This document shows positions 4,119 through 60,678 of a stretch of DNA of 64,000 bases, piece by piece. Under the pieces are notes generated by a model. It was given only the letters and a program-made list of their open reading frames with translations, ran no database searches and had not been told where the DNA came from. Every line of letters starts with the position of its first letter. Positions within the stretch are counted from its first letter, which is position 1. The stretch is from a virus. The stretch covers positions 1 through 64,000 of the IMG/VR virus record IMGVR_UViG_3300007512_002775, one strand, 5' to 3'. A program made the translations under genes and the position numbers.

Positions 4119-4411
4119 AGCTTGATGTCGGTCTCCACGTGAGGCGGCAGTTCGCCGTCTACCATCCCGCCTCGCACATAGATGATCTTGCGCACGAGCT
4201 CGAGGGGAACCCAGCCATAAACGGTCCCTTCCAAATTTGAAGGATCCTCCGCGTAATCCACCAGTTCCAGGACCGGGTAGCTGGGAAACCCAACCTCGAC
4301 CGCTTCATACGGTCCTTCATCGTCCCTAGGGCTACAGTAGGCCCCGTGGTTCGCTTGAACGCTCATCTCCAGCCCGTCTGCACAAACTACATGTCGATAC
4401 CGTTTCTTCAT
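4115..4411 (-). CDS. Conserved-looking phage hypothetical protein, 98 aa
   Basis: Starts MKKRYRHVVCADGLEMSVQA, a start I associate with small proteins of unknown function in large phages. It has two cysteines and the phrase AYCSPRDDEGPYEAVEVGFPS, and no catalytic motif. It overlaps the downstream gene by 4 nt and follows the SLOG-domain gene by 1 nt. Confidence 0.6.
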   Translation of the reverse strand: MKKRYRHVVCADGLEMSVQANHGAYCSPRDDEGPYEAVEVGFPSYPVLELVDYAEDPSNLEGTVYGWVPLELVRKIIYVRGGMVDGELPPHVETDIKL

Positions 4412-4412
4412 C

Positions 4413-4778
4413 TCACTCTCCTTCGACGATTACTTCCACAGGTACACCCAACTTCTGGGCGTGTTTGATTGTATTATCGGTGCCACCTTTTCGATCCGCA
4501 GCGACGAACGCATAGATGATATCAGAGTCCTCGGCGATCTTGAGGTTTCTTGCATGATAAGCCTGCGTGTAGACCCAGTGAGGGTTACTGCCGGCCGGAA
4601 AGTAAGGCAAGTGTTCTACAACTTCTAAGCCTCGAGAACGGGCGGCTGATGCTGCCCATTTATCAACGCCGCGGCAGCCTCCTGAGACGATGACTGAGTC
4701 TGGGGGCAGCTCGTTTACCAGAGCTTCGACCATCTCACGGTTTTGCCAACGTCGACTACCGACGATTCCAACTTTCAT
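4413..4778 (-). CDS. SLOG-domain (YpsA/DprA-like) nucleotide-binding protein
   Basis: 121 aa. The start is taken at the ATG at 4778, where it forms ATGA with the upstream stop; the frame extends to 4811 without support. MKVGIVGSRRW followed by SVIVSGGCRGVDKWAA is the nucleotide-binding GSR/GG-x-x-G-x-D signature of small SLOG proteins, and KGGTDNTI near the end is also typical. Such proteins are thought to bind or process nucleotide-derived ligands; the ligand here is unknown. Confidence 0.75.
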   Translation of the reverse strand: MKVGIVGSRRWQNREMVEALVNELPPDSVIVSGGCRGVDKWAASAARSRGLEVVEHLPYFPAGSNPHWVYTQAYHARNLKIAEDSDIIYAFVAADRKGGTDNTIKHAQKLGVPVEVIVEGE

Positions 4779-4957
4779 GCGATCACCTCTAGGTCCCTTT
4801 CGTAGTGCCAATCAACGTTCCTATCATACCCTGCGTCTGGGGAAAACTGCACCAGGAAAAACTGTCCCATTACCCCAGATTTTTCGGCTCGCACGCCTGT
4901 CTCTATCACCAAACCAGCGTTACCATAATCATCATATACCAGATCACCGATCTTCAC
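4775..4957 (-). CDS. Small SH3-like 'MKIGDLV' protein (GTG start)
   Basis: 60 aa. GTG start overlapping the upstream GIY-YIG stop (GTGA). MKIGDLVYDDYGNAG then LVIETG and a Trp-containing strand are the family pattern. Function unknown. Confidence 0.65.
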   Translation of the reverse strand: MKIGDLVYDDYGNAGLVIETGVRAEKSGVMGQFFLVQFSPDAGYDRNVDWHYERDLEVIA

Positions 4958-5202
4958 AAGATGAAGACTTCCTTCTGTTTTCGCGTGAGCTTCTTGAATG
5001 CTGCCTCTGCCACACTGGCTGAAGAGCGATCATCATGATCGGTAAAATACACAAGCCTCACAGGCCTTCGTGGCTTGGTATACTTCGCACCACGATTTGT
5101 GAAGTTGTGCTCATGGAGCCTTCGTGCAATATCAGTGGTAATGCCAGCATAGAAAGAACCATCCGCGCACTCCACCACGTACATGCACCACTCTTTGCTC
5201 AC
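4954..5202 (-). CDS. GIY-YIG nuclease-domain protein (YhbQ/UvrC-N type)
   Basis: 82 aa, a stand-alone GIY-YIG domain. MYVVECADGSFYAGITTDIARRLHEHN contains the Y-V-(x9-11)-Y-x-G core, the Arg and the downstream H/N; AKYTKPRRPVRLVY and the acidic-basic tail match the URI/YazA subgroup. The domain is a metal-dependent nuclease; stand-alone phage copies may act in repair or as remnants of homing nucleases. Confidence 0.85.
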   Translation of the reverse strand: MSKEWCMYVVECADGSFYAGITTDIARRLHEHNFTNRGAKYTKPRRPVRLVYFTDHDDRSSASVAEAAFKKLTRKQKEVFIL

Positions 5203-5205
5203 ACG

Positions 5206-5430
5206 TTACTCTAGGTCGCCATCATAGATGGGCGGCAGGTCTCCACTAAAGCACGATGGCGGGGGGCCGAGCCTGGCGTACGCCGGCGGCCTCGTCCCGG
5301 GATGGCGATCCTCCCACACAGCCATGGCAACGTCCATGGCCTCTCCCCACCGACCGTTGCTGGCCAGGCGATCCTCTTGGTGGGTGCTCAGAAGACGATC
5401 GACGTGATCGTTCAATTGCTTATCTGTCAT
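5206..5430 (-). CDS. Hypothetical protein, 74 aa
   Basis: No family recognised. The frame is open to 5514, but that would overlap the SWIM-protein gene by 73 nt, so the ATG at 5430 (MTDKQLNDHVDRLLSTHQ) is preferred; no clear Shine-Dalgarno supports either. The C-terminus is proline-rich. Confidence 0.45.
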   Translation of the reverse strand: MTDKQLNDHVDRLLSTHQEDRLASNGRWGEAMDVAMAVWEDRHPGTRPPAYARLGPPPSCFSGDLPPIYDGDLE

Positions 5431-5441
5431 GGATGCATGGA

Positions 5442-5759
5442 TCACGCTGCGGACCTCACCATCTTGATGTGCTTGCACGGCTTGCGCCAACGACGATAGC
5501 CCCAACAGCCACAAGAGGCGTTGCCGTCCGGGTAGAGAACGACAGTGTACTGATCGTTGCTAGAGCCAGTGACCAGGTGCGTCTCGATCTTGCCCGCGGG
5601 CTCGGCCACAGCGATGGTTGGACGGGACCAGTCGAGGTCGTCCAGCGTCGTATCCTCTGGCACTTTCACCCATTCGCCGCCGGCTGCTGCATACCGTTGC
5701 GCACCGACTCGAAATACTGTTGGCGGCAGATTGCCAGTGATCGCGATCTTGTTTCTCAA
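5442..5759 (-). CDS. SWIM-type zinc-finger protein
   Basis: 105 aa. The C-terminal GNASCGCWGYRRWRKPCKHI has the C-x-C-(xn)-C-x-H ligands of a SWIM zinc finger, which binds DNA or protein. The N-terminal half reads as short beta strands ending in YTVVLYPDG, the usual lead-in to SWIM fingers. It overlaps the upstream small gene by 4 nt. Partner unknown. Confidence 0.75.
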   Translation of the reverse strand: MRNKIAITGNLPPTVFRVGAQRYAAAGGEWVKVPEDTTLDDLDWSRPTIAVAEPAGKIETHLVTGSSNDQYTVVLYPDGNASCGCWGYRRWRKPCKHIKMVRSAA

Positions 5760-5941
5760 TCGCTACCTCCTGTTCCCGCAATGTTCAGGGGAGGAATCAA
5801 GCCGGCATCGCGAGCTTTGTCCAAAGCTTCGAACGCTTCTTCGACTAGAAAGCCGGCTGTACCTTGCCGCGAAATACACGCAATGACCTTTTGTGCATTC
5901 AAGACCAAGGCTGCGACTGCCTCATGCTGTTTGTTGTTCAT
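5756..5941 (-). CDS. Hypothetical small protein, 61 aa
   Basis: Mostly alpha-helical by eye (MNNKQHEAVAALVLNAQKVI); no family recognised. It is the first gene after a strong candidate promoter at 5969-5996 and overlaps the next gene as ATGA. Confidence 0.55.
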   Translation of the reverse strand: MNNKQHEAVAALVLNAQKVIACISRQGTAGFLVEEAFEALDKARDAGLIPPLNIAGTGGSD

Positions 5942-5968
5942 GATGATCTCTCGCTCAGTTACATGGAC

Positions 5969-5996
5969 ATTATACCATGCCTGGCGATTGTTTACA
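5969..5996 (-). promoter_or_regulatory. Promoter, TGTAAA-N16-TATAAT
   Basis: On the minus strand TGTAAA (5991-5996) precedes a perfect TATAAT (5969-5974) by 16 nt. It lies 28 nt upstream of the gene starting at 5941 and is a clear member of the promoter set recurring in this window. Confidence 0.7.
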
Positions 5997-6017
5997 CCGG
6001 AATGAGGATGTTTCGAA

Positions 6018-6338
6018 TCAGCCGGGTGCGCCGTATTTTGAGCCAGGAGAAGAGAGCCCGCGCCCTGTGAGAGAAGGAGCCGAAGGACCCGACCCTAAAG
6101 CGTCAATGAGAGCCAGGCTGACATCTTGGGTCAGCCGGTCGATGACACGCGCACGACGTTCATCATCCATCTCTCCCACCTTTTGAGACCGACGATTGGC
6201 AAGATCAACGAGCAGCTTATCGACCCATTGGCTGATCCGCTCTTTGTGCTTGTAGATGTCTGAAGCGGAAGCTTCGCGTCGCTCATGCAAGAGCTCTTCA
6301 CGAATGATCCGTCGGAGCTGGCCTTCTGTGATCCTCAT
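6018..6338 (-). CDS. Tagged small protein (MRITEGQLRRIIREELLHE)
   Basis: 106 aa. The true start is the ATG at 6338; the frame is open to 6449 but only the inner start gives the tag. Residues 1-19 are the archetypal tag of this genome. The body is helical and charged (SQWVDKLLVDLANRR), ending in a Ser/Gly/Pro-rich tail. Probably a packaged or virion-associated protein (inference from the tag). Confidence 0.65.
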   Translation of the reverse strand: MRITEGQLRRIIREELLHERREASASDIYKHKERISQWVDKLLVDLANRRSQKVGEMDDERRARVIDRLTQDVSLALIDALGSGPSAPSLTGRGLSSPGSKYGAPG

Positions 6339-6391
6339 TAGACATCCCGTGCACGTAAGTGACAATGGTAAATATGAGTTCACCCCTGGTT

Positions 6392-6580
6392 TTAGTCCGC
6401 AAGATCCAATTCGAATTCGGATTCGTATGTGGCGGTACCATCCGACCACAGCACTACGAAACCGTTGACATCCTCACTAACGTTTCCTATCGACGGCGGA
6501 GGCTGAAAAGCTACAATGATCCCGTACGGTTGGTCACGTTCAAACCCGTAAGCTCTCATTACGAGGTCACCTATCTTCAC
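6392..6580 (-). CDS. Small SH3-like 'MKIGDLV' protein (GTG start)
   Basis: 62 aa. MKIGDLVMRAYGFERDQPYG then IIVAFQPP and VVLWSDGTA follow the family pattern. Its GTG start overlaps the end of the upstream paralogue by 14 nt in the conserved stop-in-start arrangement. Confidence 0.65.
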   Translation of the reverse strand: MKIGDLVMRAYGFERDQPYGIIVAFQPPPSIGNVSEDVNGFVVLWSDGTATYESEFELDLAD

Positions 6581-6767
6581 TGATCACCTCGTAATCTTCT
6601 GGCCAACAGTTGGCAACTCTGCCGTTTGGAAACAACACCTTCATCGCTTGGTAGGATGGATCACGCTCTAGAATGAGTAGCGGCGCCTCCGTATAATCCA
6701 TGTAGGGGTCACCTTTGAGAGTCCAGAACATCCGCTTCTTCATCCGAACCAGGTCACCTACTTTCAC
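6567..6767 (-). CDS. Small SH3-like 'MKVGDLV' protein (GTG start)
   Basis: 66 aa. The frame runs to 6860, but the GTG at 6767 gives the family start (V)KVGDLVRMKKR and has GGAGG six bases upstream. It overlaps the upstream paralogue by 14 nt and the downstream one by 14 nt. It contains LLILERDPSYQAMKVLFPNG and a Trp strand. Confidence 0.65.
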   Translation of the reverse strand: MKVGDLVRMKKRMFWTLKGDPYMDYTEAPLLILERDPSYQAMKVLFPNGRVANCWPEDYEVISEDR

Positions 6768-6939
6768 GTAGCACCTCCATGCTGGTATCGAGCATGGAAC
6801 CCAAGGACCCGTTTGCCCACAAAACTTTACAACGAACACACAAGGGCCCTCCGGGGCCAAAGGATTTCGCCGGCAATTTCTCCACTACAATACCAACGTA
6901 CGGAGAGAAGTCTGATCTGACCAGATCGCCTACCTTCAT
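6754..6939 (-). CDS. Small SH3-like 'MKVGDLV' protein
   Basis: 61 aa, MKVGDLVRSDFSPYVG then IVVEKLP and KVLWANGSLG, the same barrel pattern, ending MEVLRESR. It overlaps the upstream gene as ATGA. Confidence 0.65.
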   Translation of the reverse strand: MKVGDLVRSDFSPYVGIVVEKLPAKSFGPGGPLCVRCKVLWANGSLGSMLDTSMEVLRESR

Positions 6940-7304
6940 ACGGGCCGCGTTTCCCTTTGCACAGCACCGGTCTCATAGTCGACCAGGTACCAGGCGAAAG
7001 TGCCCATGTGATCATCGTAGAAGTTGGACTCATTGATGACGTAGAGCTCGTCGCTGTCCAGGAGTTCTGTCACGGGAGGGCCAGAGACCTCACAACGGAA
7101 AATCGGATCGTACGGCGGCACGTGAAAACTGCGAATGCCGCCCACTGCTTGGGCTTGCGTAATCAGCAGCGCCAAACTGGTGGTGGTGTTTTCTCGCACG
7201 TACGCATCGATGCGGGGCAACATGCTGTCGCCATCGTAATGAACGTAACAGCCAGTGATGCCGCCGTCTGCGTGCTTGACCCCTAGTACTGCGTGTGTAC
7301 TCAT
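6936..7304 (-). CDS. Conserved-looking phage hypothetical protein, 122 aa
   Basis: Begins MSTHAVLGVKHADGGITGCY, then VHYDGDSMLP, a start I associate with small proteins of large phages, function unknown. It is acidic, with no catalytic signature. A variant promoter lies about 27 nt upstream, making it the first gene of a leftward unit. Confidence 0.6.
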   Translation of the reverse strand: MSTHAVLGVKHADGGITGCYVHYDGDSMLPRIDAYVRENTTTSLALLITQAQAVGGIRSFHVPPYDPIFRCEVSGPPVTELLDSDELYVINESNFYDDHMGTFAWYLVDYETGAVQRETRPV

Positions 7305-16186: not shown

Positions 16187-17440
16187 TTATTTGAACTGAT
16201 CAGCTTCGGTTGATTCTTCCATGGCCAAAGTAGATGCCTGCGCACCAGAAATGCACTGAGCGACGAGGTCAAAATAACCAGTCCCTACTTCTCTCTGATG
16301 CTTGACAGCCGTATAGTCCGATTCATCGGCAAGCTGAAATTCATCTTGCTGCAATTCAGCGTACGCTGACATGTCTCGCGCTTCATAATCCAAAGCTAAT
16401 TCGAACATGCCAAAATTGAGAGCGTGAAAACCGGCCAATGTAATGAATTGAAACTTGTATCCCATTGCACTCAGTTCACGCTGAAACTCAGCGATGGTAG
16501 CATCATCTAAATTCTTCTTCCAATTGAAGCTGGGAGAACAATTGTATGCTAAAAGCTTTCCTGGAAACTCTCCGTGGATGGCTTCGGCAAATCTTTTAGC
16601 TTCGGCCAAGTCTGGTTTAGAAGTCTCGCACCAGAGTAAATCTGCATAATTCGCGTAACGTAAACCTCGCGCGATAGCCATGTCTAGGCCACCAGTAATG
16701 TGATAAAAGCCTTCCGGCGTGCGCTCTTTACTGGTAATAAAGGGCAGATCTTCGTCATCAATGTCTGTTGTCAACAACCTAGCACTATTCGCATCAGTGC
16801 GCGCAATCAAAACAGTGTCGGTGTCCATTACATCAGATGCTAATCTTGCAGCAATCAATTTTCTGATAAATTCTGAGCCTGGCACGAGCACCTTTCCGCC
16901 CAAGTGACCACACTTTTTGGCAGAACTCAATTGATCTTCAAAATGTACACCGGCAGCGCCGGCACGTATCATAGACTTCATCAACTCAAACGCGTTCAAC
17001 GGTCCTCCAAACCCGGCTTCGGCGTCTGCTACGATAGGTGCAAACCAGTCCCTAATAGTCCGGCAATCATTTTCGGCCCATTCAACCTGATCTGAGCGCT
17101 GCAGCGCATTGTTAATTTTTTGTACCAACATTGGGACGCTGTGCACGGCATAAAGACTTTGATCCGGATACATGGCGTGAGAATCATTGGCATCGGCGGC
17201 CACTTGCCATCCAGAGCAATATATGGCGGGTACCCCAGCTTTTACCATTTGCATCGCTTGATTCCCTGTGACTGCTCCCATAGCATGAGTATAATCTTCA
17301 GTCAACAAAAGGCTCCACAGACGATCTGCTGCTGCTTGAGCAAAGGGAGCTTCTTCAGGCTGCGACCCTTGAAGCGCGTGTACTGCGTCAACGGAATAGG
17401 GGCGATCTATTGGAGGGACGGCTAAAGGGAGGCGGCTCAT
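16187..17440 (-). CDS. aceA: Isocitrate lyase
   Basis: 417 aa, close to the usual bacterial length. It cleaves isocitrate to glyoxylate and succinate, the first step of the glyoxylate shunt. The family signature [10 protein letters not shown] with catalytic Cys is at residues 175-184. [12 protein letters not shown] (substrate loop), [10 protein letters not shown]-type [22 protein letters not shown] (metal-binding) and [12 protein letters not shown] are all present, so the enzyme looks intact. Its start overlaps the stop of malate synthase as ATGA, so the two are co-translated. Host-derived metabolic gene in a phage context. Confidence 0.97.
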
Positions 17441-19011
17441 TGAATTATAATCCTTTCGTAGGCCGGGAGGGTTAAAAACTCAGGGAGCACTTCGGCCGTA
17501 CAAAGCTCCATGAATAACTCAACTGCTTCTTGCAGTCGTGGAGAATCGTGCTTCTTTAGCACGAGCCCTAATTCCTGCTGTAATCTTCCCGGAGTAATGT
17601 CGTCGCCTTCTGCATCTTGCATCCCGTAACGTATCCATTGCCAAACTTGAGTACGAGAAATTTCAGCAGTCGCGGCGTCCTCCATAAGGTTGTTTAAGGG
17701 AACACAGCCTTGGCCTGCTAACCATGCTGCAAGGTACAATACACCTACTTCAACATTTTGCCTCAGGCCGGCTGCAGTAATGAGACCAATTGGAGGCCGC
17801 GTGAGTGAGACAGTCAGTCGCACTTCCTCAATATTACTCCATCCGTTCCTGAGTGACATTTGGTTGGCCCCCAACATGTGCTTACTAAAAATTTCTTCTG
17901 CCACTGGTACCAACGCTGGGTGAGCGACCCATGTGCCATCGTGGCCGCGCAAAACTTCGTGCAGTTTATCAAGACGCACTTTATTCATCGCAGCTGCATG
18001 ACCGGCGATGTCCCCTTTGATCGGTATTTGCGCAGCCATCCCTCCCATCGCATGACACCCTCTGCGGTGGCATGTATCTACCAATAGCTTCGCGTACGCT
18101 TCCATAAACGGGGTGTCCATTCCAATGAGTGCACGGTCAGGAGTGACACGATCGGATGTGTCGGCAAAACATTTAATGTAACTAAAAATATAATCCCAAC
18201 GGCCGCAATTTAAGCCAGCAGAATGATCTCGTAGGGCCCATAAAATCTCGTGCATTTGGAAGGCCGCCGGAAGGGTCTCGATCAGGACCGTGGCTCGAAT
18301 GGTACCAGTAGGCCATTCGAATGCTTGTTCTGTCCAAGCAAAGATCTTCGCCCACCAAGCGGCTTCTTCCCACCGTTCTAATTTAGGTAAATAAAAAAAC
18401 GGCTTCTTAGAACCAGCAGTAAAAACTTCAGCGTTGTGCCATGCATACAGCCCAAAATCAAACAAGGCAGCCGGAACCGTTTTACCATATAAAGAAAAAT
18501 GAGCTTCTCGTAAATGAAGCCCCCTCGGCCGCACGAACAAGACGGCCGGATCATCTTGTAGCCTGTATGTTCCTTTAGTGGGATGCTCATAAGTGATGTG
18601 GCCTCGTAAAGCATCTTTAAGGTTTAAATGCCCTTCTAATAACGCCTCCCAAGTAGGAGATAAGCTGTCTTCGAAATCTGCCATATAGACTTTTGCGCCC
18701 GAATTAAGGGCATTAATAATCATTTTTCTGTCGGGCGGTCCAGTGATCTCTACTCGACGATCTAGAAGCTCCGAGGGCGGGGGAGCCACTCGCCAATGCC
18801 CTTTGCGAATTTCTAGGGAGTCTGGAAGGTAGCCAACGTTGCAACGGGGATCGGCTTGGCGATCTCTTCTTGCCGCCAAAAGATCATCTAGTTCGGGGCC
18901 AAAGCGTTGTACGAGGCTAGCCAAGAAACCTACAGCATCTTCAGCCAACACCGAACTAGCTAATTCGTGATCCACGTAACTCACGCCATTTAGTCTTTTA
19001 GTTTGAGGCAC
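17437..19011 (-). CDS. aceB: Malate synthase A
   Basis: 524 aa, full length for the A isoform. It condenses glyoxylate with acetyl-CoA to malate. Signature [14 protein letters not shown] is at residues 261-274, preceded by [18 protein letters not shown]; the catalytic Arg region ([12 protein letters not shown]) and the C-terminal catalytic Asp region ([19 protein letters not shown]) are intact. It lies between the PMM-like gene (14-nt overlap) and aceA (4-nt overlap), giving one operon for the complete glyoxylate bypass. Confidence 0.97.
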
Positions 19012-25492: not shown

Positions 25493-26521
25493 CTAAAACT
25501 TCAACAATGCATGTGGAGAGCTCTCAGTTTGCGATGCATGCGTCTGTTCAATAAAGCGCGACCTAGCCCTTAGTTCCATTAAGTTGTATGCCCCTGTGTA
25601 AGAAAGGCCACTGCGAACCCCCCACTCTAAATCATGCAATACGTCAGCAACGGGCCCTTTGATCGTTACAGTAGTTGAAACGCCCTCTATAGAACCTATC
25701 TTGCCGCGCCACGCCTTTTGTGCTTCATGAGATGCCATCCCTCTATAGATCTTACGAGGAGCACCGTCATTAGTTCGTAAAATCATTCCGGGAGTCTCAT
25801 CGGTTCCTGCGAGCAATGAACCACACATGATTACATCAGCTCCGGCCGCCAAGGCTTTGACCATATCTCCCGAGTTTTTGATGCCTCCGTCTGCAATGAG
25901 AATGGCGTCACGATCTGATGTTGCACAGTCCAATACACTCTGCAGCGTAGGAATCCCGTGGCCCGTCTGTACTCGAGTAGAGCAGATCGAACCACCGCCG
26001 ACTCCCACTCTAATACTATCCGCTCCCCAATCAGACAAGTCGTTAAAGGCTTCTAACGTGGCTACATTTCCTGCCATCAAATGAACTGATTTGCCAAAAA
26101 TATCACGCAACGTCTTTAGTGCCTTTTTCATCAATGCATGATGCCCGTGAGCAACGTCTAAGCAAAATATTCTACACCCAGCATCATACAGAGCAGTCGC
26201 TCGATCTTCGAAATCGCCTGTAATTCCCACGGCTGCTCCAAACACAGCCCCCGATTGAGCGGTTACAACCTCTTTGACCATAGAAGCCTGTTCTTCAACA
26301 GTATTGTAACGATGGAGAATCCCCAAAGCACCTGCCTTATGCATAGCGATGGCCATCTCTGTGCCTGTCACTGTATCCATGGGTGCCGAAATAATTGGAA
26401 GCCTCAAACGATCCTTTCTCCATCTGGTCAATTCAGTGGACAAATCGATCTGAACTCGAGTTTCAATATTGCTGTACCGCGGCTCTAACAAGACGTCATC
26501 AAAACAAATCGCGCGTCGCAC
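25493..26521 (-). CDS. IMP dehydrogenase / GMP reductase family enzyme, without CBS domains
   Basis: 342 aa. A GTG start at 26521 with GGAGG four to five bases upstream is preferred over starts at 26539 or 26551. FDDVLLEP, PIISAPMDTVTG, GVGGGSICSTRVQTGHGIP (catalytic Cys), ILIADGGIKNSGDMVKALAAGAD and GMASHEAQ follow the family order. CBS domains are absent. The T-R-x-x-T-G after the Cys is more like GMP reductase, while the C-terminal GPVADVLHDLEWGVRSGLSYTGA block is shared. It acts in guanine nucleotide balance. Confidence 0.9.
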   Translation of the reverse strand: MRRAICFDDVLLEPRYSNIETRVQIDLSTELTRWRKDRLRLPIISAPMDTVTGTEMAIAMHKAGALGILHRYNTVEEQASMVKEVVTAQSGAVFGAAVGITGDFEDRATALYDAGCRIFCLDVAHGHHALMKKALKTLRDIFGKSVHLMAGNVATLEAFNDLSDWGADSIRVGVGGGSICSTRVQTGHGIPTLQSVLDCATSDRDAILIADGGIKNSGDMVKALAAGADVIMCGSLLAGTDETPGMILRTNDGAPRKIYRGMASHEAQKAWRGKIGSIEGVSTTVTIKGPVADVLHDLEWGVRSGLSYTGAYNLMELRARSRFIEQTHASQTESSPHALLKF

Positions 26522-26589
26522 GTCTCCTCCTTTAAGCATACACTCAACCAAAAATAAAAACTACTAGACTGCTGTATATAGAAGCAGGT

Positions 26590-33785: not shown

Positions 33786-35414
33786 TCATAAAGTTTCAAT
33801 AAGTCCCAAATCAGAGACTGTTTCCTCACTGTAACAGATGGCACACCCTATGAGTAGCACATTACAGGCCACTGAGACCGCGTGTTGTAACGCAGAATGA
33901 ACCACAAGATGCGGATCAATAATCTTAAGGTCAATCATGTTACCAAAGCTATCTTGTGCTGCATCGTATCCCACGCCCTGCTTGTTTCGATGAACCTTTC
34001 TCACAACCATTTCCGGGATTCCTCCGGCGTTCTCTACAATTTGCCTCAAAGGAGCCGAGCATGCCTTGAGCAGCGCCTCATAACCCATCCTATAAGACTC
34101 AGATTCACACTTTTTAACTCGACATTTCGAAGCCGCACAGACTAAAGCAGTGCCTCCACCGGGTTGAATGCCCTCTTTTCTTGCAGCGCGCGCCGAATGG
34201 AGGGCATCGTCTATTCGATCTCGACGCTCCATCATTTCTCCCTCCGTCGCTCCGCCCACCCTGATGATGCCAATACCCTCAGACAACCTCCTCAGTCGTC
34301 GATTCGCTACATCCACCTCAAGTTGAGACGATGAGGGATCTTCTAAAATGGCCTTAATCGATACGATTCTTTCGTCGACTTTTTGGGCATCTCTTTTGTT
34401 TTTAGTTCCTATCAGGACTGTGCCATTTTTATTAATTACAACCTTGTCCGCATAACCAAGAAAATCGCTTACATCTTGACGTTCCATCAAACCGTCATCA
34501 ATCGCTAGCACTTCTGCTCCGCATAAAGCTGCAATGTCTTGAAGCGCTATCGTCCTAGCATTCCCAAACTCAGGAGCTTTAATGGCACAAACACAGAGTG
34601 TCCCCTTCATGCGATTCAATACTAAGGTCTGTAAGGCTTCACTAGCTACATCATTGGCAACAATGAGAAGTGCGCTGTTGGTATTGGCTGCATACTCCAG
34701 TGCTGGAAGGATAGACTTAGCTGTGTTGAGCGTTTGGTTGTAAACCAATATGGCTACTCGCTCCAACTCTGCCAAGCCTTTCGCTTGATCAGTCACAAAG
34801 TATGGACTGAGGAACCCTCTATCTATAACAGCTCCTTCCACTATTTCCAAGGAAGTATCGAATCCTTTCGCTTGTTCTACTGAGATGGCGCCGTCGTCTC
34901 CTACGGCGTCTAGCGCTTCAGCGATCAATTCTCCGATTGTAACTTCTCCATTAGCAGAAATAGTTGCCACACTAATGAGATCATCCCGGCCGTCAACACC
35001 CAACCTCGTTTGGTCTAACGCGCTTAAAACATCTAGCGACGCAGCTTCTATTCCAGCACAGAGCTGCCTAACATCAACATCAGTAAGAAGGAGTCGCGCG
35101 CCCTCGTGCAAGATAGCTTGTGCCAAGACTGTTGCAGTAGTGGTACCATCCCCAGCGACTTCAGCAGATCTTTGAGCTGCCTCCTTTACTAGTTGGGCAC
35201 CCAAGTTCTCGAAGGGATCCAACAGCGATATCGCATTAGCCACAGACACGCCATCCTTAGTGAGGTGCGGAGGTGCCCCAGGCCGAAAAATAGCAACATT
35301 TTTTCCTTTGGGCCCTAAAGTAACTTTGACTGCATTGGCCAAAGTATCAACCCCACGGATAATCTTACTCCTAGCTTCAGAATCAAATTTTACATCGGTT
35401 ACATCGTGAATCAT
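33786..35414 (-). CDS. groEL: GroEL-type chaperonin
   Basis: 542 aa. VTLGPKGKNVAI, TKDGVSVA, AGDGTTTATVLAQAI (nucleotide-binding), GGATEGEMMERRDRIDDALHSARAA and PGGGTALVCA are the hallmark blocks, and the catalytic D-G-T-T-T is intact. Apical-domain hydrophobic segments are present. The C-terminus lacks the GGM tail, and no groES is adjacent. Phage GroEL proteins may fold capsid proteins alone or with host GroES. It overlaps the next upstream gene by 4 nt. Confidence 0.96.
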   Translation of the reverse strand: MIHDVTDVKFDSEARSKIIRGVDTLANAVKVTLGPKGKNVAIFRPGAPPHLTKDGVSVANAISLLDPFENLGAQLVKEAAQRSAEVAGDGTTTATVLAQAILHEGARLLLTDVDVRQLCAGIEAASLDVLSALDQTRLGVDGRDDLISVATISANGEVTIGELIAEALDAVGDDGAISVEQAKGFDTSLEIVEGAVIDRGFLSPYFVTDQAKGLAELERVAILVYNQTLNTAKSILPALEYAANTNSALLIVANDVASEALQTLVLNRMKGTLCVCAIKAPEFGNARTIALQDIAALCGAEVLAIDDGLMERQDVSDFLGYADKVVINKNGTVLIGTKNKRDAQKVDERIVSIKAILEDPSSSQLEVDVANRRLRRLSEGIGIIRVGGATEGEMMERRDRIDDALHSARAARKEGIQPGGGTALVCAASKCRVKKCESESYRMGYEALLKACSAPLRQIVENAGGIPEMVVRKVHRNKQGVGYDAAQDSFGNMIDLKIIDPHLVVHSALQHAVSVACNVLLIGCAICYSEETVSDLGLIETL

Positions 35415-53919: not shown

Positions 53920-54321
53920 TTAGAGTTTCCTCACGCTAACATTTGATGCTTTTAAAATATCAACACTAGACATATCGCGATATTCTTCGCTAAAAACGAC
54001 TTCATCAATTCCTGCGTTAATGATTGCTTTAGCGCACATGCGGCATGGCGAGAGCGTAATATACATGATTTTTCGTTTGGGGTTGTTGTAATCTAACTTG
54101 AGTAAAGCATTGATCTCTGCGTGGATAAACCCGCTCTGGCCAGGCTCGTCAGTTTCAGGCTCGTTAGGACCTCCAGAATAATTTCCATTGTAACCCACTG
54201 CCAATACTTGAGTATTGTCAGCCGCAACTACGATAGCGCCTACTTGAAAACGAGGATCATATGATCGCTGGGAGATGGTGCCAGCTGTCGCCATCCAGAC
54301 TTCGTCCCAATCAGGCCTCAT
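53920..54321 (-). CDS. dCMP deaminase
   Basis: 133 aa. SGFIHAEINALLKLD is the H-A-E zinc/proton motif and LSPCRMCAKAIINAGIDEV the P-C-x-x-C motif; GAIVVAADN and VGYNGN match the dCMP deaminase subgroup. It converts dCMP to dUMP, feeding dTMP synthesis. It clusters with thymidine kinase and the hydroxymethylase. Confidence 0.88.
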   Translation of the reverse strand: MRPDWDEVWMATAGTISQRSYDPRFQVGAIVVAADNTQVLAVGYNGNYSGGPNEPETDEPGQSGFIHAEINALLKLDYNNPKRKIMYITLSPCRMCAKAIINAGIDEVVFSEEYRDMSSVDILKASNVSVRKL

Positions 54322-54323
54322 GG

Positions 54324-55340
54324 CTATGCACCTTTTTCAGAATCGGAGCCGCTAGCAACTTCTTGAACAGAAAGCTTCTTCTTCTCGGCATCGAGAACCA
54401 CATCGACGCCAGCTTCTTCAGCTTTTTTCATCAATTCCTCGATCTCCGGTTGGATCTCCTCGACAGCCTCGTTGACTAGTTCCAAGACTTCTTCGTCGCC
54501 TTCCTCTTCGACGTCGAATAGGTCGTCCACCAGAGCATCTCCCGGCAGGCCAAAGCCAGCAGCCTTTTTGTGGCCGCCGCCACCAAAGCGTTTGGCAATC
54601 TCAGAAACATCGATCCTATCATGGAACGCACGCAAGCTCACCTTGATGTTCCTGTCTTCGTGATCGTAGAACCATATCATCGCAAAATCGCAATCCGGCG
54701 ACAGCCTTGCTCCGATCTCGGACATCCAGTGTGAGGCATTGACCACCATCACGTCCATCCCTTCGAACTTGCGGTGGACGGCCTTCTCACACACCTTTTT
54801 GACCACAGTCTTAGAATAGGCAAGAATGTAAGAACCTCTCTTCACCGCATCATCGAATACCGAGTCGTCTTCGTACTTCTCGAACTCCTCGAACTCAAAG
54901 GGCACCATGTCAAAGGCCGCGGCGAACTCCTTCGAGTAAGGCAGTTCCCACTTCCATAGATCTCGATCCTCGATGTAATCGATGAACTTGGGTGCTTCCT
55001 TGCCAGGGTGAAAGAAGTCCCAAGCCAAACGCGCGCCTGAGTGCTTCATGTCGAAATGTGTATTAGAAATATCGTGAAGCTCTACCATAGCAGACTTGTG
55101 GTGGTCAATGACGATCAGGCCCTCGGCATCTTTTATCATCTGCTTGGTGGTCGCATTATCAAACGAAAAGTCCAAAATTGCTACTGTCTTACCTTTGACG
55201 TCAGGTGGTGGCGTACCGTGCTTGCTGGCGTGGTACTCTGCTCGATTGCCCAATAGCTTCCAAGCCGCGTACGCAGCACCGAAGCCATCAGTACAGTCTT
55301 TATGATAAATTAGTAAGTCTATTGAACTGGGTTCTAGCAT
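54324..55340 (-). CDS. DHH-family phosphoesterase
   Basis: 338 aa. LLIYHKDCTDGFGAAYAAWK, VAILDFSFD and EGLIVIDHHKSA provide the DHH motifs; AKRFGGGGHKKAAGFGL is the DHHA1 G-G-G-H block. Family members hydrolyse nano-RNA, cyclic dinucleotides or pAp. The last 60 residues are an acidic coiled tail (LVNEAVEEIQPEIEELMKKA). It could degrade short oligonucleotides during host takeover. Confidence 0.88.
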   Translation of the reverse strand: MLEPSSIDLLIYHKDCTDGFGAAYAAWKLLGNRAEYHASKHGTPPPDVKGKTVAILDFSFDNATTKQMIKDAEGLIVIDHHKSAMVELHDISNTHFDMKHSGARLAWDFFHPGKEAPKFIDYIEDRDLWKWELPYSKEFAAAFDMVPFEFEEFEKYEDDSVFDDAVKRGSYILAYSKTVVKKVCEKAVHRKFEGMDVMVVNASHWMSEIGARLSPDCDFAMIWFYDHEDRNIKVSLRAFHDRIDVSEIAKRFGGGGHKKAAGFGLPGDALVDDLFDVEEEGDEEVLELVNEAVEEIQPEIEELMKKAEEAGVDVVLDAEKKKLSVQEVASGSDSEKGA

Positions 55341-55897
55341 TAGTCACCGTCATACAGATCATTTACAAATGGTGTCTCCGACCAAGCTCTCGGTTCATAC
55401 ATATCAGCTCCACCAACCTCGATCTCTGCAAGATTGTCGATTTTCCTCACTGTATAGTACGCATTATCACCAGTTTTTACACATACTGCGGGACAAACTT
55501 CAATCTTAGTGGCCCAAGGGAGCATCTCCTTTACTTCGTGGAAAACGTTTCCTGATGCCGAAATCTGGATTGAGGAAGCAACGATCGTCTTGCCCTGCTT
55601 AAACAAGTCGATGAGGGCCGTCGCGCAGTCGTCTATCATGAATGCTTCATCGATGCCGATCACATCATAACCGATACTGTGCGCCACGATGTCCTCTCCG
55701 TTGTTAACGTTGATCGCCGGAAACCTGAGGCCAGCATGAGTACAGATCTCGCCTTCCTCATAACGATCATCCATCTTCGGCTTGAAGGCCACAACCCGCT
55801 TGTTTTGATAAGAACAGCGCTCGAGAACCGAAAGCATCCTCGTCGTCTTAGAACCAAACATCGGGCCCGTGAACACTATGAATTCTGGATTTTTCAC
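55340..55897 (-). CDS. tdk: Thymidine kinase (TK1 type)
   Basis: 185 aa. IVFTGPMFGSKTTRMLSVL is the Walker A of type II thymidine kinases; YDVIGIDEAFMID is the Walker B/DEAQF region, with F in place of Q; YEPRAW near the end fits the lasso loop. It phosphorylates (deoxy)thymidine. The zinc cysteines of the family are mostly missing. It overlaps the DHH gene by 1 nt. Confidence 0.9.
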   Translation of the reverse strand: MKNPEFIVFTGPMFGSKTTRMLSVLERCSYQNKRVVAFKPKMDDRYEEGEICTHAGLRFPAINVNNGEDIVAHSIGYDVIGIDEAFMIDDCATALIDLFKQGKTIVASSIQISASGNVFHEVKEMLPWATKIEVCPAVCVKTGDNAYYTVRKIDNLAEIEVGGADMYEPRAWSETPFVNDLYDGD

Positions 55898-55993: not shown

Positions 55994-56013
55994 GAGGGCA
56001 CCGCGGTGCCCTC
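55994..56013 (-). terminator. Rho-independent-type terminator
   Basis: A perfect 20-base palindrome, GAGGGCACCGCGGTGCCCTC, is followed on the minus strand by ATTTTATATTA. It ends the transcript of the PLP-enzyme unit (56075 onward) 60 nt after the stop, just before the thymidine kinase promoter. Confidence 0.75.
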
Positions 56014-56074: not shown

Positions 56075-56992
56075 TTAGTCCCTCACCTCCCCCCATGCTC
56101 TATAGCTATCGATTGCACCTTCGCTGTAATCGAACTCTGGCGTCGGATCTAATTCGCCAGCAACGTTCCAAAACAAAGCTCCCGGACGGCCATGCTCCAA
56201 CATGTACTTCCATCCCTTGCCGTCATAAGTAGACACCGTATCAAAAGGTGGCAAGTTTTGAGGTCGCTCTTTAGCCGTGAACGGTCGTGGTTCAGACCAA
56301 ATCTTCGTTCGGCCGAGCTCTCCAGCTTTCATGTTTCTCGCGACGCACACGCCACGCATGTCAGCATTCGGAAAACCAACCTGTAGCCCGCGAGTCAAAA
56401 CTCCGGTCGAGACCACGGTCCATACTTCCTTCGGCTCAGGAAAGCCAGATTCTAAGATGTTTTGACAGATTCGAGTAAACCCAGCGATGGTACCAGGGTG
56501 GTTTAGACCGAACGGCAGAAACGCTGCACTATTTTCTTTCGCCCATGCTGCTCCCATTCTATTGAGGTTGGGCATCGCAGCAATACGGCGCCACTTCACT
56601 TGCAGATCAACACCCAACTTCTCAGCCAACTCGATGGCAGCTGCTTGGTGATTTGTGATCCTTTTGCATGCTGGTGCAAACAAGACTACTTTCTTGTTAT
56701 ACAGATTCGCCAGAGAAACGATGGCGCACGGGGCATGTCCCACGCGTGGCATACTATATACCAATGTTTCTTCGGGCACTTGAGTTACCAACCACTCTCC
56801 AGCTCGAGCTTTCGTACCACCGTGACCAAGGAGATCCTCCCTCGCCACTTGAAACCCATTCACCTCTTCAATTATTACCGGGGGCAGTTTTGATACAAAC
56901 CCCTCTGTCATTTTCAGATAGGTCTCTCTATCAGGATACTCATTATTGATCTCCTTGTTGATGCCATCTATTACGTGATTGTTATGTGCCAT
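56075..56992 (-). CDS. PLP-dependent enzyme, ACC-deaminase / D-cysteine desulfhydrase fold type II
   Basis: 305 aa. VAREDLLGHGGTKARAGEWL carries the fold-type-II PLP lysine in G-G-T-K-x-R; VVSTGVLTRGLQVGFPNAD fits the phosphate-binding and cofactor-ring region. Family members act on ACC or D-cysteine-type substrates. Positioned after an aGPT-pyrophosphorylase-like gene and near a hydroxymethylase, it may process an amino-acid adduct on DNA bases; alternatively it serves amino acid metabolism. Confidence 0.75.
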   Translation of the reverse strand: MAHNNHVIDGINKEINNEYPDRETYLKMTEGFVSKLPPVIIEEVNGFQVAREDLLGHGGTKARAGEWLVTQVPEETLVYSMPRVGHAPCAIVSLANLYNKKVVLFAPACKRITNHQAAAIELAEKLGVDLQVKWRRIAAMPNLNRMGAAWAKENSAAFLPFGLNHPGTIAGFTRICQNILESGFPEPKEVWTVVSTGVLTRGLQVGFPNADMRGVCVARNMKAGELGRTKIWSEPRPFTAKERPQNLPPFDTVSTYDGKGWKYMLEHGRPGALFWNVAGELDPTPEFDYSEGAIDSYRAWGEVRD

Positions 56993-57083
56993 AATCAGTT
57001 CCTCCTTTTGTATGACATTGCATTATGCAACAATTATATTTTACCGATGTAAAGAGGTTCGTGAAGCCCTTAAAGTGATTTTT

Positions 57084-58133
57084 TTACCAAACCCATTGAG
57101 GGGTGCCTAACATCCATTTCTGTCGCCCTTTAGGGTGATCAGTGATCAGTGATGCATTCCATATCTTGGTTCGATCTAGATGACCGTACGTCTTCTCACG
57201 ATTGTCAGGAATGTAGTTCTCGACGTATCGGATGTAATCACACATGACATCCTCCAGGTCCTTCGGGTGACCACCGGTGCGATGCTGGGCTTCTTCCATC
57301 ACAAGATCATAGTAGTCTGCCTTAGAAACCCTCCCCACTTTCTCAGCAAAGAGATCCATGGCTTCCTGGGCATTCTTGCCATAGTACATGTGACTGCCTT
57401 CTTCTACGAGCTCGGGGTAGTAATCCGCGAGATCGGCCGCGATCGCCGTGTATTGAAAGTGGAACCTCTTCATGCCGTGCTCTCGGTTCCACTCGCACAT
57501 GAAGTCTACGATCTCTCGAATCGTCGCCTTTCCCCTGCAGCTTGTGGCTCTAAAGATAAACTTCCATACGTCATCCACCAGATGATGAGCATGCTCCCCA
57601 AAATAGACTTTGCCTCCGGTCCGATAACCGTTTCTAGGCTTGGGAAAAGCAGGGATCTGATTGCCGATCGAAGTGTACATGACACCATCGTAACTGCGGA
57701 TCCAATCCGTCATCTCCTCTACTGTCTTTAGCTTTGCGATCTCTGGAATTATCGTGTTACGGTAACCGTGATCAGCCTCAAAGGATGCGCCAGAGCCGGT
57801 AATTCGATGCACGAGAAAAACGAACAGCCACTCTCGATGCGTCCAGGCCACGTGCAGCCCTTCATAAGTGTGGTTCCGTGCCCGATGATCAGCGTCCCAC
57901 TTGTAGTACTTGGGAGCTCGACCAGCATACCACAGATCTTGCAGCATGTTTTGGAAACCAGCGTGCTTCCTTTCTACTGTGTCGTAGATGGTGACGTTTT
58001 CCATCAGATCATCACCACACGAACCAATGTAAGACATGCCGCCTAGGTTGCACTCCTTCTGGACTAGCTTCGCTTTGGCAGTATATTGCAGGAAATCATC
58101 AAAGTATTTGTTAAATTTAATCCTGTCTGACAC
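57084..58133 (-). CDS. Putative alpha-glutamyl/putrescinyl-thymine pyrophosphorylase-like protein (clade 3 type)
   Basis: 349 aa. RITGSGASFEADHGYRNT, YTSIGNQIPAFPKP, VDFMCEWNREHGMKRFHFQY and HMYYGKNAQEAMDLF resemble, from memory, the aGPT-Pplase clade 3 pattern of phage DNA-hypermodification loci, which displace pyrophosphate from an activated hydroxymethyl-pyrimidine with an amine or amino acid. Residues CDYIRYVENYIP and YGHLDRTKIWN close the domain. No check was possible. Its neighbours are an SGNH-like protein and a PLP enzyme. Confidence 0.5.
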   Translation of the reverse strand: MSDRIKFNKYFDDFLQYTAKAKLVQKECNLGGMSYIGSCGDDLMENVTIYDTVERKHAGFQNMLQDLWYAGRAPKYYKWDADHRARNHTYEGLHVAWTHREWLFVFLVHRITGSGASFEADHGYRNTIIPEIAKLKTVEEMTDWIRSYDGVMYTSIGNQIPAFPKPRNGYRTGGKVYFGEHAHHLVDDVWKFIFRATSCRGKATIREIVDFMCEWNREHGMKRFHFQYTAIAADLADYYPELVEEGSHMYYGKNAQEAMDLFAEKVGRVSKADYYDLVMEEAQHRTGGHPKDLEDVMCDYIRYVENYIPDNREKTYGHLDRTKIWNASLITDHPKGRQKWMLGTPQWVW

Positions 58134-59141
58134 TCAAATGCTCCATAGATAGTGTTCTGGGGAAATGTGCACGGAACGTGGTTTTTCCATGACACCAAAA
58201 TCTAGTTCGCTAAATTCGTTGATGAAGTACCTCGGCCATTCGATCACTTCAAACCCCAAAAAGGTGCATCGGTGTCGAAGTGCGTCGTTGAATGCCTTCT
58301 TGGCTTCGTTACGCTCTCTCCATGAACCCCAAAAAGGCTGGCCCTTATAGTAACCCGTCTTCGGTAATCGACGACTCTCATTTTCAATCGGTAGCGCAGC
58401 AACGACCTCGACCGTTTCCAATTCATAAGCTTCTTTGCATCGAAGAAGCTCTGCTAGATATCGGTCAGCCAAATCCACCGCCATCTGCCTCTGTTCAGAA
58501 GCACTCTTTGCTAGGCGGCAGACGTGGTGCCTGATGTCGATGTTACCAAAGTAGGTTCGAATAGAGAGTAGCTCACTAGGGTTTGAGCCGTGGGTATATT
58601 CTTCTATCCAATCCGAAAAACCTAAGTTCAGTGCGCCGTTCAGGGTCTGGCCATCCAGTCTGGTCAAATAAGCATCGGGACGCCAAGCTGCTAGAGCATG
58701 AGAGTCTCCTAACACCAAGCTTTTCTGATCTTGATCATGCTGCCTAACTGTCTTTGCGGAAGCACAAACCTTGGAAATCTTAGCAAAATCCAGCTGCCTG
58801 TAAGCAGGAGAAGAGTGCGGCCGCACACGGCAATGGAGTCGCTGGCCATAATCAGGGCAATCAATATCTAAGGAGAAGAGTTGCCCAGAAAAGTTCTGGA
58901 TCTGCTTTGCCTTAGCGGCTAAAGCGTCCCATGACTTATGGTCCTTAAGGAATACATTGACGCCCTTGGATTTCTCCTTAAACTCCATGCCATGTTCGAA
59001 GTAGACGATCTCTTCATTTGACCAGTCTCTTTTAAAAGCTAGTTCAGCTCCTAAGCATTTTCCCCACATGCGAGCCCAACCCGTACGATGACTCGTGGTA
59101 CGATTTGCATGAGTGGTAATAGGGCTAACGATTACAGACAT
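58134..59141 (-). CDS. SGNH/GDSL-like hypothetical protein, 335 aa
   Basis: KSLVLGDSHALAAWRPDAYL has the G-D-S-H start typical of SGNH hydrolases; a second block TYFGNIDIRHHVCRL could hold the G-N and catalytic H region. The rest is alpha/beta with conserved aromatic residues. It abuts the aGPT-Pplase-like gene (58133/58134), so the two probably act together. Activity is unproven. Confidence 0.5.
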   Translation of the reverse strand: MSVIVSPITTHANRTTSHRTGWARMWGKCLGAELAFKRDWSNEEIVYFEHGMEFKEKSKGVNVFLKDHKSWDALAAKAKQIQNFSGQLFSLDIDCPDYGQRLHCRVRPHSSPAYRQLDFAKISKVCASAKTVRQHDQDQKSLVLGDSHALAAWRPDAYLTRLDGQTLNGALNLGFSDWIEEYTHGSNPSELLSIRTYFGNIDIRHHVCRLAKSASEQRQMAVDLADRYLAELLRCKEAYELETVEVVAALPIENESRRLPKTGYYKGQPFWGSWRERNEAKKAFNDALRHRCTFLGFEVIEWPRYFINEFSELDFGVMEKPRSVHISPEHYLWSI

Positions 59142-59149
59142 CCTTACTC

Positions 59150-59587
59150 CTAAAATAGACCAGTGGAACCAAAGCCGCCAGGACCACGGATGGTCGCCTG
59201 CTCGAAGAGTTCCGATTCCTCGACCACCTCTATTGTATCATATAACACGGGAAGTAGCACCAATTGGACGAGTTTTTCTCCGGGCGAGATCATAGTCGTC
59301 TTGTCACCGACGTTGACGACGTGCAAATGGATCTCCCCTTGGTAATCCTCATCGACGACACACGCACCGACGAACAGTGACTTTTTGAGAGCAATGCCGC
59401 TCTTGTTAAAAGCGATCAATGCATACCCTTCTGGTACATTAGCTTTTATACCACTCGGTATGAACACTTTTTCGCCGACACCGATGCAAGCACGATTAAA
59501 ATCCTCAGGGACATAAAAGTCCAGCCCTGCTGATTGTGGTGTGCCCCTAGTCGGTGTCTTTACTTTCCGGACCTTCGTGATCCTCAT
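59150..59587 (-). CDS. dut: dUTPase (trimeric Dut family)
   Basis: 145 aa from the ATG at 59587, with AAGGAG seven bases upstream; the frame runs to 59638. Five motifs are visible: SAGLDFYVPEDF, IAFNKSGIALK, GACVVDEDYQGEIHLHVVN, EKLVQLVLLP and RGPGGFGSTG. It hydrolyses dUTP to dUMP, protecting DNA from uracil and supplying substrate for thymine synthesis. It overlaps the upstream gene by 41 nt. Confidence 0.95.
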   Translation of the reverse strand: MRITKVRKVKTPTRGTPQSAGLDFYVPEDFNRACIGVGEKVFIPSGIKANVPEGYALIAFNKSGIALKKSLFVGACVVDEDYQGEIHLHVVNVGDKTTMISPGEKLVQLVLLPVLYDTIEVVEESELFEQATIRGPGGFGSTGLF

Positions 59588-59852
59588 CGGCCTTCTCCTT
59601 GATGTAATTGTCCAATGCACCAATGTAAGCGCATGCATCCAGTAAATTGTCTTCTCTATAAGAGTACGAATGTCTAGAAAGCTTGAGGGCGACCAATGCA
59701 GCGTACATGTCTGCAGCCGTAAAATCCTTACCAGTCATGCCACGAGCAATGCTTGCTGCCCTCTCCATGCCCTCCGAAAACGGGCCGTACTGCCTGGCTT
59801 TCTCTTCGGACCGCTTATTGACGATCTCGTTTGCTCTATCTAGTATGTTCAA
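59547..59852 (-). CDS. DUF6378-like phage protein
   Basis: 101 aa. TTG start at 59852 with AGGAG seven bases upstream; the frame opens further. ILDRANEIVNKRSEEKARQYGPF, then MERAASIARGMTGKDFTAAD and KLSRHSYSYREDNLLDACAY resemble the DUF6378 family of phage proteins, distant kin of DUF1599-like domains. Position between the hydroxymethylase and dUTPase suggests a nucleotide-metabolism role. Confidence 0.65.
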   Translation of the reverse strand: MNILDRANEIVNKRSEEKARQYGPFSEGMERAASIARGMTGKDFTAADMYAALVALKLSRHSYSYREDNLLDACAYIGALDNYIKEKADEDHEGPESKDTD

Positions 59853-60678
59853 AGAACAGCTCCTTTTTTCTGCATGCAGCAAAGTTGTTTATGTCACTTT
59901 TTTCCATGTCTTCTTTCGGCAGAAACTTCCTTTCTTTTAGCAGCTTCTCCCAAGTCCAGCCAGCCTTTAATTCGAACCGGCGAGTGTTTGATGGGGGACT
60001 AACCGGTTCTTCAGTTAAAACCTTTGTCGCCATCTCAAAATGCCGTTCATACAGATGCAAGCTGCCAGCGTGGTGATGGTAGGAGCCTAGGCTGACGCCT
60101 GCCCCTCTCTCGTTCAATTCGTTGAGCATCAGTTGTTGGAAGAGCGCAAATGTGAAAACATCGTTACAAAAACCAAAGATGATGTCGTTGGATCGCATCG
60201 CAACACCTAGATGTAGGCTGTTATTACGAATGAAAAATTGCAGATATTGGGTACACGGATAATCTAGCTTGTTCTTCCCTTTGTGGTGCGGCTGATTTAT
60301 GACAATCGTCGCGCGACGTGTATCGTTGTCGCCCAACATCTCGTCGATAGCCCATTCCCACTGAGCAGAAAGATATACGCCGTAATTGGACTCAACTTCT
60401 CCGTCTTCGTCTTGGATCTGCTCCCATATCTTGGCCAGTTTGCCGATGTTATTGACAGCAGGATTTTTCGATAAATACCAGAGCCATTCTGCGATCGCAT
60501 AAGTGGAAGAAAACTTCCTGGCCTTAGAGTGAATCATCAGCTCTGTGGGATCTGCGATCTCAAACTGCTGGAATAGAAGCTCTTTCTGCTTACTTCCTCG
60601 GCTGTTCACTTCTTCGCCAAAATAATTGACTTTGTGCAGCAGCGATTTAAAAGCCGAGTCTAGCGAATCAAACTTCAT
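59836..60678 (-). CDS. Deoxycytidylate hydroxymethylase-like protein (thymidylate synthase superfamily)
   Basis: 280 aa. Folate-dependent C5 one-carbon transfer to a pyrimidine nucleotide. Catalytic Cys142 lies in YPCTQYLQFFIRNN. RSNDIIFGFCND at 162-173 places Asp173 where thymidylate synthase has the Asn that selects dUMP; T4 gp42 (dCMP hydroxymethylase) has Asp there too, and both share IWEQ/IWQQ, E-(V/I)-(E/N)-SNYG and AGSLH-YxRHF. This suggests 5-hydroxymethyl-dCMP as product, although dUMP remains possible. Start at 60678, 16 nt after the DnaE stop. Confidence 0.85.
   Translation of the reverse strand: MKFDSLDSAFKSLLHKVNYFGEEVNSRGSKQKELLFQQFEIADPTELMIHSKARKFSSTYAIAEWLWYLSKNPAVNNIGKLAKIWEQIQDEDGEVESNYGVYLSAQWEWAIDEMLGDNDTRRATIVINQPHHKGKNKLDYPCTQYLQFFIRNNSLHLGVAMRSNDIIFGFCNDVFTFALFQQLMLNELNERGAGVSLGSYHHHAGSLHLYERHFEMATKVLTEEPVSPPSNTRRFELKAGWTWEKLLKERKFLPKEDMEKSDINNFAACRKKELFFEHTR

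Follow-up and report, generated by a model that had tools for sequence, protein, structure and literature searches.

Layout of the locus

The DNA analysed here, called the window, comprises bases 1-64000 of the IMG/VR virus record IMGVR_UViG_3300007512_002775 (74,947 bases, possibly a fragment). On its minus strand it carries a cassette of six co-directional open reading frames (ORFs) for a hydroxymethylase of the thymidylate synthase (TS) family, a DUF6378 protein, a dUTPase, an SGNH-fold protein, an aGPT-like protein and a pyridoxal phosphate (PLP) enzyme (Table 1). An earlier note had proposed a pyrimidine hypermodification locus at this place, and the comparisons below point to cytosine as the modified base. 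The genes abut or overlap: the TGA stop codon of the SGNH gene lies directly 5' of the GTG start of the aGPT-like gene, and the likely ATG of the dUTPase (59587) falls within the end of the DUF6378 gene. The hydroxymethylase frame is open to 60798; as a start there would overlap the end of dnaE, the ATG at 60678 is the more plausible one. A hairpin with an 8-bp stem (6 G-C pairs) and a T-rich tail lies 61 bases past the stop codon of the PLP gene. The presence of the six genes, their tight order and the strong terminator at the end, all named in the earlier note, were confirmed.

Table 1. Features of the cassette and its surroundings; positions refer to the window except for locus L115.
Feature	Position	Strand	Evidence or remark
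dCMP-type pyrimidine hydroxymethylase (predicted), TS family	59836-60678	-	PF00303 E=4e-20; PDB 1b49 E=1e-21; Asp aligned to T4 Asp179
DUF6378 protein, putative accessory	59547-59882	-	PF19905 E=3e-10
dUTPase, accessory nucleotide metabolism	59150-59587 (ORF listed from 59638)	-	PF00692 E=2e-23
SGNH-fold protein, N-terminal Rossmann-like domain	58134-59141	-	predicted structure; PDB SGNH/GDSL esterases E=1.8e-5
aGPT/AADT-like protein, GTG start	57084-58133	-	predicted structure; BFVD matches; E-x3-C motif
PALP-fold PLP enzyme, phage M6 gp52 homologue by sequence	56075-56992	-	phrog_7093 E=2e-37
Intrinsic terminator closing the cassette	55994-56013	-	hairpin GAGGGCAC-CGCG-GTGCCCTC, then ATTTTATATT
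Thymidine kinase family protein, downstream, nucleotide metabolism	55340-55897	-	PF00265 E=3e-30; probably outside the pathway
dCMP deaminase, downstream, nucleotide metabolism	53920-54321	-	PF00383 E=1e-22; phrog_174 E=2e-45
Example Ae233C locus (L115)	3662-4867, 4866-5585, 5589-6011, 6001-7131		

Conservation of the gene association

A family scan of viral contigs led to 80 loci with an aGPT-like protein, and partner genes were counted in the 27 non-redundant clusters whose flanks extended for 4.5 kb or more in each direction. SGNH was present in all 27 clusters, the PLP gene in 26 and a TS-family hydroxymethylase in 24. The triad of SGNH, aGPT-like and PLP genes occurs in five different gene orders and was co-directional in 62 of 62 cases, so that the association looks to be kept by selection and not by inherited synteny. 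Chance does not explain it, as dozens of viral loci that have diverged from each other share it. When genome contigs were scanned, relatives of the aGPT-like protein were found in only nine, all from binned or uncultured genomes, and the family therefore looks viral.

The identities and positions of the DUF6378 protein and the dUTPase agreed with those given before, but their place in a conserved core did not hold up. DUF6378 was detected in 4 of the 80 aGPT loci, compared to 43 of 60 loci of a second type with the Ae233C family (see below), and the dUTPase is as rare in the aGPT loci. Given this rarity neither gene is core, and both are better regarded as accessory.

The hydroxymethylase and the choice of base

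The solved structures closest to the hydroxymethylase are T4 gp42, a dCMP hydroxymethylase (1b49), and then the CMP hydroxymethylase MilA. A PCTQ motif aligns with the Cys region of T4 gp42, as expected for a TS fold with a catalytic Cys. At the base-recognition position (177 in E. coli TS, 179 in T4) the enzyme has Asp, with RSNDIIFGFCND aligned to RSNDVVFGFRND of T4. Asp was also found in all 54 readable hydroxymethylases from the aGPT loci and in 22 of 22 from Ae233C loci, whereas 55 of 55 from M6-type, thymidine-hypermodifying loci have Asn; these counts are not all independent, as several of the compared loci come from contigs that are almost identical. Genomes without a hydroxymethylase in the cassette had an Asp-type copy elsewhere, wherever any copy was found. 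In the MetaGPA study, Asp177 was independently linked to cytosine-modified phage DNA (PMC8670742). As the same phage encodes its own ThyX, it can make dTMP without the TS-family gene. Judged by its specificity residue, the hydroxymethylase is of the dCMP type, as had been suspected earlier. Together with the gp52-type PLP enzyme and the AADT-like predicted fold described below, this residue gives strong support to cytosine as the target of the hypermodification locus.

The PLP enzyme

The Pfam PALP match of the PLP enzyme is weak (0.029), and the match to phrog_7093 reaches 2e-37. This is the family of gp52 from Pseudomonas phage M6, which itself matches with E=2e-159. A clean profile-profile comparison (hhalign) of window-type PLP enzymes with M6 gp52 gave a probability of 98.6 and E=1e-15 over 219 columns, with conservation of Lys61, the presumed PLP lysine. 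The PLP enzyme assigned to the locus before is thus borne out, and by sequence it is a homologue of M6 gp52. The modified base of phage M6 is 5-(2-aminoethyl)-dU; enzymes of the gp52 family are present in M6 but not in all thymidine-hypermodifying phages.

Relatives with about 32% identity to the window PLP enzyme occur in Erythrobacter phage vB_EliS_R6L (L014) and Microcystis phage Mae-JY30 (L015). There they lie in or beside genes annotated as DNA modification methylase or ParB/sulfiredoxin, perhaps as part of another modification system.

The aGPT-like protein

The aGPT-like protein had no match in Pfam, PHROG or NCBIfam, and tblastn against 50,697 phage records gave no match either. Searching Pfam and PHROG with 63 members of the family led to nothing usable, and none of them matches PF18724. 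The AlphaFold model (predicted local distance difference test, pLDDT, 76.6; predicted template modelling score, pTM, 0.81) was compared with BFVD. The first matches were two proteins with 39% and 11% identity (the latter with E=4.5e-5), each bearing the name amino acid:DNA transferase domain protein. They were followed by the 5-hydroxymethyl-deoxyuridine (5-hmdU) DNA kinase of SP10 (probability 1.00, E=2.6e-3) and, as weaker matches, the HMUDK_hel protein of PhiW-14 and a mycobacteriophage ADDT. About 45-55 residues from the C-terminal end lies an E-x3-C motif, whose E and C are 100% conserved in the aGPT-like, c12, Ae233C and ADDT families; in HMUDK_hel the Cys alone reached the cut-off. Comparison of hidden Markov models (HMM-HMM) of the aGPT-like family with Ae233C was not significant, and with the putative c12 paralogue it was suggestive only (19%, E 0.0012). 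Against the PDB the model gave just poor overlaps with AGOG glycosylases, and none reached E<1. The aGPT-Pplase-like character proposed for this gene agrees with the AADT-like fold suggested by the BFVD matches and with the E-x3-C motif, but neither PF18724 nor PF18723 recognises the protein. The label aGPT/AADT-like thus stands for a supported relation of predicted fold and motif and for a putative membership.

Many loci (L053:7338-8390 and about 30 similar ones) have, adjacent to the aGPT-like gene, a member of the c12 family (about 335 amino acids), which shares the E-x3-C motif. This family may be a paralogue of the aGPT-like one, similar to the AADT/HMUDK_hel pair in M6.

The SGNH protein

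The AlphaFold model of the SGNH protein is of high confidence (pLDDT 93, pTM 0.88). About 210 residues match SGNH/GDSL esterases, with 37 PDB chains at E<=1e-3 (top E=1.8e-5) and sialate O-acetylesterases among the best structural matches. No relative was found when the sequence profile of the family was compared with the PDB. In 79 homologues the GDSH and G(N)xDxRHH motifs and His325 are conserved; Ser147, Gly199 and His325 are invariant and Asn200 is kept in 68 of 79. Membership of the SGNH/GDSL fold is confirmed on the level of the predicted structure, from which a hydrolase activity does not follow. The N-terminal segment of the protein weakly resembles residues 53-98 of T4 beta-glucosyltransferase (Pfam best 5e-4, in 5 of 79 members; hhalign 77% over 45 columns). 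This likeness was not built on, as it is weak and the FGG part is missing from the window copy.

SGNH was detected in 39 of 39 whole records with an aGPT-like, Ae233C or phage 25 type locus, compared to none of five M6-type records. As the 39 records had been picked for carrying the cassette, this count partly restates the neighbourhood result. Independent of that choice is the absence of the M6-type DNA kinase (PF18748; 0/39 versus 4/5 M6-type records) and of ADDT (0/39 versus 5/5). Correspondingly, the record of the window, which may be a fragment, gave no match to the 5-hmdU DNA kinase (PF18748), ADDT or HMUDK_hel (PF18723). From these sequence comparisons the SGNH protein appears as the most constant partner, a point absent from the earlier note. 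The simplest reading is that it takes over the step done by the kinase in thymidine pathways. No previous account linking an SGNH protein to DNA modification was found, in a search that covered few subscription papers.

Aeromonas phages and Ae233C loci

The SGNH family of the window is homologous to residues 1-335 of the 795-residue ORF233c from Aeromonas phages 31 and 44RR. The remainder of ORF233c resembles HMUDK_hel (Pfam 0.0036; in the profile comparison 71% for HMUDK_hel and 51% for ADDT), so that SGNH would be fused there to a hypermodification-type domain, and lies beside one in the window. In Aeromonas phage 25 (L225:3743-7014, ORF225c) a stand-alone SGNH gene adjoins those for a UDP-galactopyranose mutase and a possible glycosyltransferase. 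Phages 31, 44RR and 25 have gene 42 (dCMP hydroxymethylase) and no glucosyltransferase. A 2010 review names them as examples and states that, for such phages, whether other groups are joined to the hydroxymethylcytosine is not known (PMC2993671). The cassette offers a concrete gene candidate for this question, and as these phages are cultured the idea is directly testable.

The 60 Ae233C loci (L097-L156), in which an SGNH gene is joined by one for Ae233C, the fusion partner of SGNH in phages 31 and 44RR, have no PLP gene, and none of 13 Ae233C clusters had one when counted in the same way as the aGPT clusters (26/27). Instead, a myo-inositol-1-phosphate synthase (c4, PF01658) was found in 59 of the 60, a haloacid dehalogenase (HAD)-like gene with a weak polynucleotide kinase match in 56 and an FkbM methyltransferase in 48. 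This gene content suggests that the Ae233C loci may be an inositol-based version of cytosine modification.

Comparison with known systems

With the thymidine hypermodification of Pseudomonas phage M6 and Salmonella phage ViI the cassette shares a TS-family hydroxymethylase, a PALP-fold PLP enzyme from the PHROG of M6 gp52, a C-terminal E-x3-C motif in a transferase-like protein and the compact set of genes. It differs in that its hydroxymethylase is of the predicted dCMP type (Asp) and theirs of the dUMP type (Asn), and in having no 5-hmdU DNA kinase, no match to PF18724 or PF18723 and no radical S-adenosylmethionine (SAM) enzyme, the last being sought in the record and not found; SGNH is always present instead. 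In T4, gp42 supplies 5-hydroxymethylcytosine (5hmC) for a second enzyme, the alpha- or beta-glucosyltransferase, and the dCMP hydroxymethylase of the cassette would do likewise; however, the cassette has no glucosyltransferase, and SGNH, aGPT-like and PLP enzymes stand in its place. ORF233c of Aeromonas phages 44RR and 31 and ORF225c of phage 25 contain a homologous SGNH protein, in phages with gene 42 and no known glucosyltransferase. Unlike in the cassette, no PLP gene was found beside their SGNH genes, and phage 25 pairs SGNH with a UDP-galactopyranose mutase. Further decoration of a C5-modified cytosine in phage DNA is also the principle of the 5hmC carbamoyltransferase found by MetaGPA (PMC8670742) and of CmoX/CmoY (PMC12783734), where CmoY attaches glycine to a cytosine derivative in the carboxymethylcytosine-glycine system (PMC12783734). 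The enzymes are nevertheless unrelated, being a carbamoyltransferase in the first case, and in the second a homologue of C5-methyltransferases that depends on carboxy-S-adenosylmethionine (Cx-SAM), with an ATP-dependent amide ligase.

Proposed pathway and alternatives

From the specificity residue of the hydroxymethylase, the gp52-type PLP enzyme and the AADT-like fold, the cassette can be read, by analogy, as a cytosine counterpart of the M6/ViI thymidine hypermodification with SGNH as a new component. The hydroxymethylase would very probably convert dCMP to 5-hydroxymethyl-dCMP, leading to 5hmC in the DNA. SGNH, in place of the 5-hmdU DNA kinase, might then act together with the aGPT-like protein, a proposed base-flipping transferase for modified cytosine, to add a probably amino-acid-derived substituent at the 5-hydroxymethyl group. 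By homology, the PLP enzyme could trim this substituent, with decarboxylation as the most likely reaction, so that the cytosine would end up with an amine; the likely purpose would be protection from host nucleases. This order follows that known for thymidine hypermodification, namely hydroxymethylation, DNA kinase and transferase (PMC6449724). That the cassette makes a hypermodified cytosine by a pathway of this kind as a whole is given a probability of roughly 0.68; the attached group is probably amino-acid-derived, and its precise nature is much less certain. The individual roles are modelled on those in M6 and ViI, namely a kinase, glycine or serine transfer and PLP decarboxylation. The proposal of a pyrimidine hypermodification locus with a possible cytosine target is hence retained in its main point, whereas DUF1599 and a core role of DUF6378 and dUTPase had to be given up.

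Several results weigh against this pathway. No dedicated kinase for 5-hydroxymethyl-dCMP turned up in the possibly fragmentary record. The SGNH homologues also depart from the usual DxxH motif, as the position of its Asp (322) varies among the 79 sequences. A profile search of the aGPT-like gene against the transferase clades, as suggested in the earlier note, gave nothing significant, with HMM-HMM probabilities below 1% for ADDT and HMUDK_hel. The structure prediction, suggested there as well, led to the ADDT and 5-hmdU kinase matches in BFVD but to no PDB match at E<1, although glycinyltransferase structures exist. Finally, neither an aGPT nor an Ae233C gene was detected in phage 25, so that SGNH need not activate amino acid transfer; its step could instead be one of acylation or editing.

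The last point leads to an explanation in which cytosine is the right target but the group is of the sugar or acyl type. SGNH would then complete or edit the group on 5hmC as an O-acyltransferase or esterase, with the aGPT-like and PLP proteins supplying or shaping it without attachment of an amino acid. A constant SGNH next to variable chemistry suits such a shared step: its partners are the PLP and aGPT-like proteins in some loci, inositol-phosphate synthase, a HAD phosphatase-like protein and FkbM in Ae233C loci, and UDP-galactopyranose mutase with a possible glycosyltransferase in phage 25, and the sialate O-acetylesterases among its structural matches point in the same direction. We nevertheless consider this unlikely, as the PLP enzyme is a relative of an M6 amine-pathway enzyme and accompanies the aGPT-like protein in 26/27 clusters but Ae233C in none of 13, which fits amino acid chemistry in this subtype. 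Clearly less probable still is a thymidine locus of the M6/ViI kind, where the TS-family enzyme makes 5-hydroxymethyl-dUMP and the other genes act on 5-hydroxymethyluracil. The homology of the PLP enzyme to M6 gp52, the aGPT-like fold and the nearby dUTPase and thymidine kinase would agree with it, but Asp and not Asn occupies the specificity position in every related locus, and the record has no match to the 5-hmdU DNA kinase, ADDT or HMUDK_hel. That SGNH, aGPT-like and PLP proteins modify RNA, nucleotides or the cell surface, with the hydroxymethylase nearby only through clustering of nucleotide genes, is most improbable. In its favour, lipids and carbohydrates are the main substrates of the SGNH enzymes that were matched in the PDB, and many neighbours are general nucleotide-metabolism genes. 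Against it, the triad persists through five gene orders, any hydroxymethylase found along with it is of the D type, the fusion partner of SGNH resembles the helical domain of the 5-hmdU DNA kinase, and the PLP enzyme belongs to the M6 hypermodification family.

Hypermodification by such an enzyme set is known on thymine, and the proposed cytosine version would widen natural DNA chemistry. If true, it would also add new enzymes able to attach amines to 5hmC, which is important in animal epigenetics as well. More tentatively, and at somewhat less than even odds, one may think of a widespread and so far undescribed class of cytosine hypermodification in which an SGNH-fold enzyme replaces the 5-hmdU DNA kinase and interchangeable partners build different groups on 5hmC. 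With the same reserve, these partners might be the aGPT-like and PLP proteins for amino acids, Ae233C and inositol-phosphate synthase for inositol, and sugar enzymes as in phage 25.

Other genes of the record

A DUF1599 (Nmad1-like) gene, said in the earlier note to lie elsewhere, had no match in the 74,947-base record. The methyltransferase that had been taken to add to the picture is indeed present, but is of the N6/N4 type (PF01555). At record positions 64859-66134 (record G000; L017:6860-8135, minus strand) lie adjoining genes for DNA glycosylases of the Fpg/Nei and HhH-GPD types; a base of this phage is probably modified. Both enzymes of the glyoxylate shunt are encoded side by side on the minus strand at window positions 16190-19011, isocitrate lyase (PF00463, 3e-91) and malate synthase (PF01274, 4e-96). 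A biopterin-dependent aromatic amino acid hydroxylase, which is unusual for a phage, was found at 2512-3348 (minus strand; PF00351, 1e-71), an inosine monophosphate (IMP) dehydrogenase at 25493-26551 and a gene for a GroEL-type chaperonin at 33786-35414, the latter two also on the minus strand.

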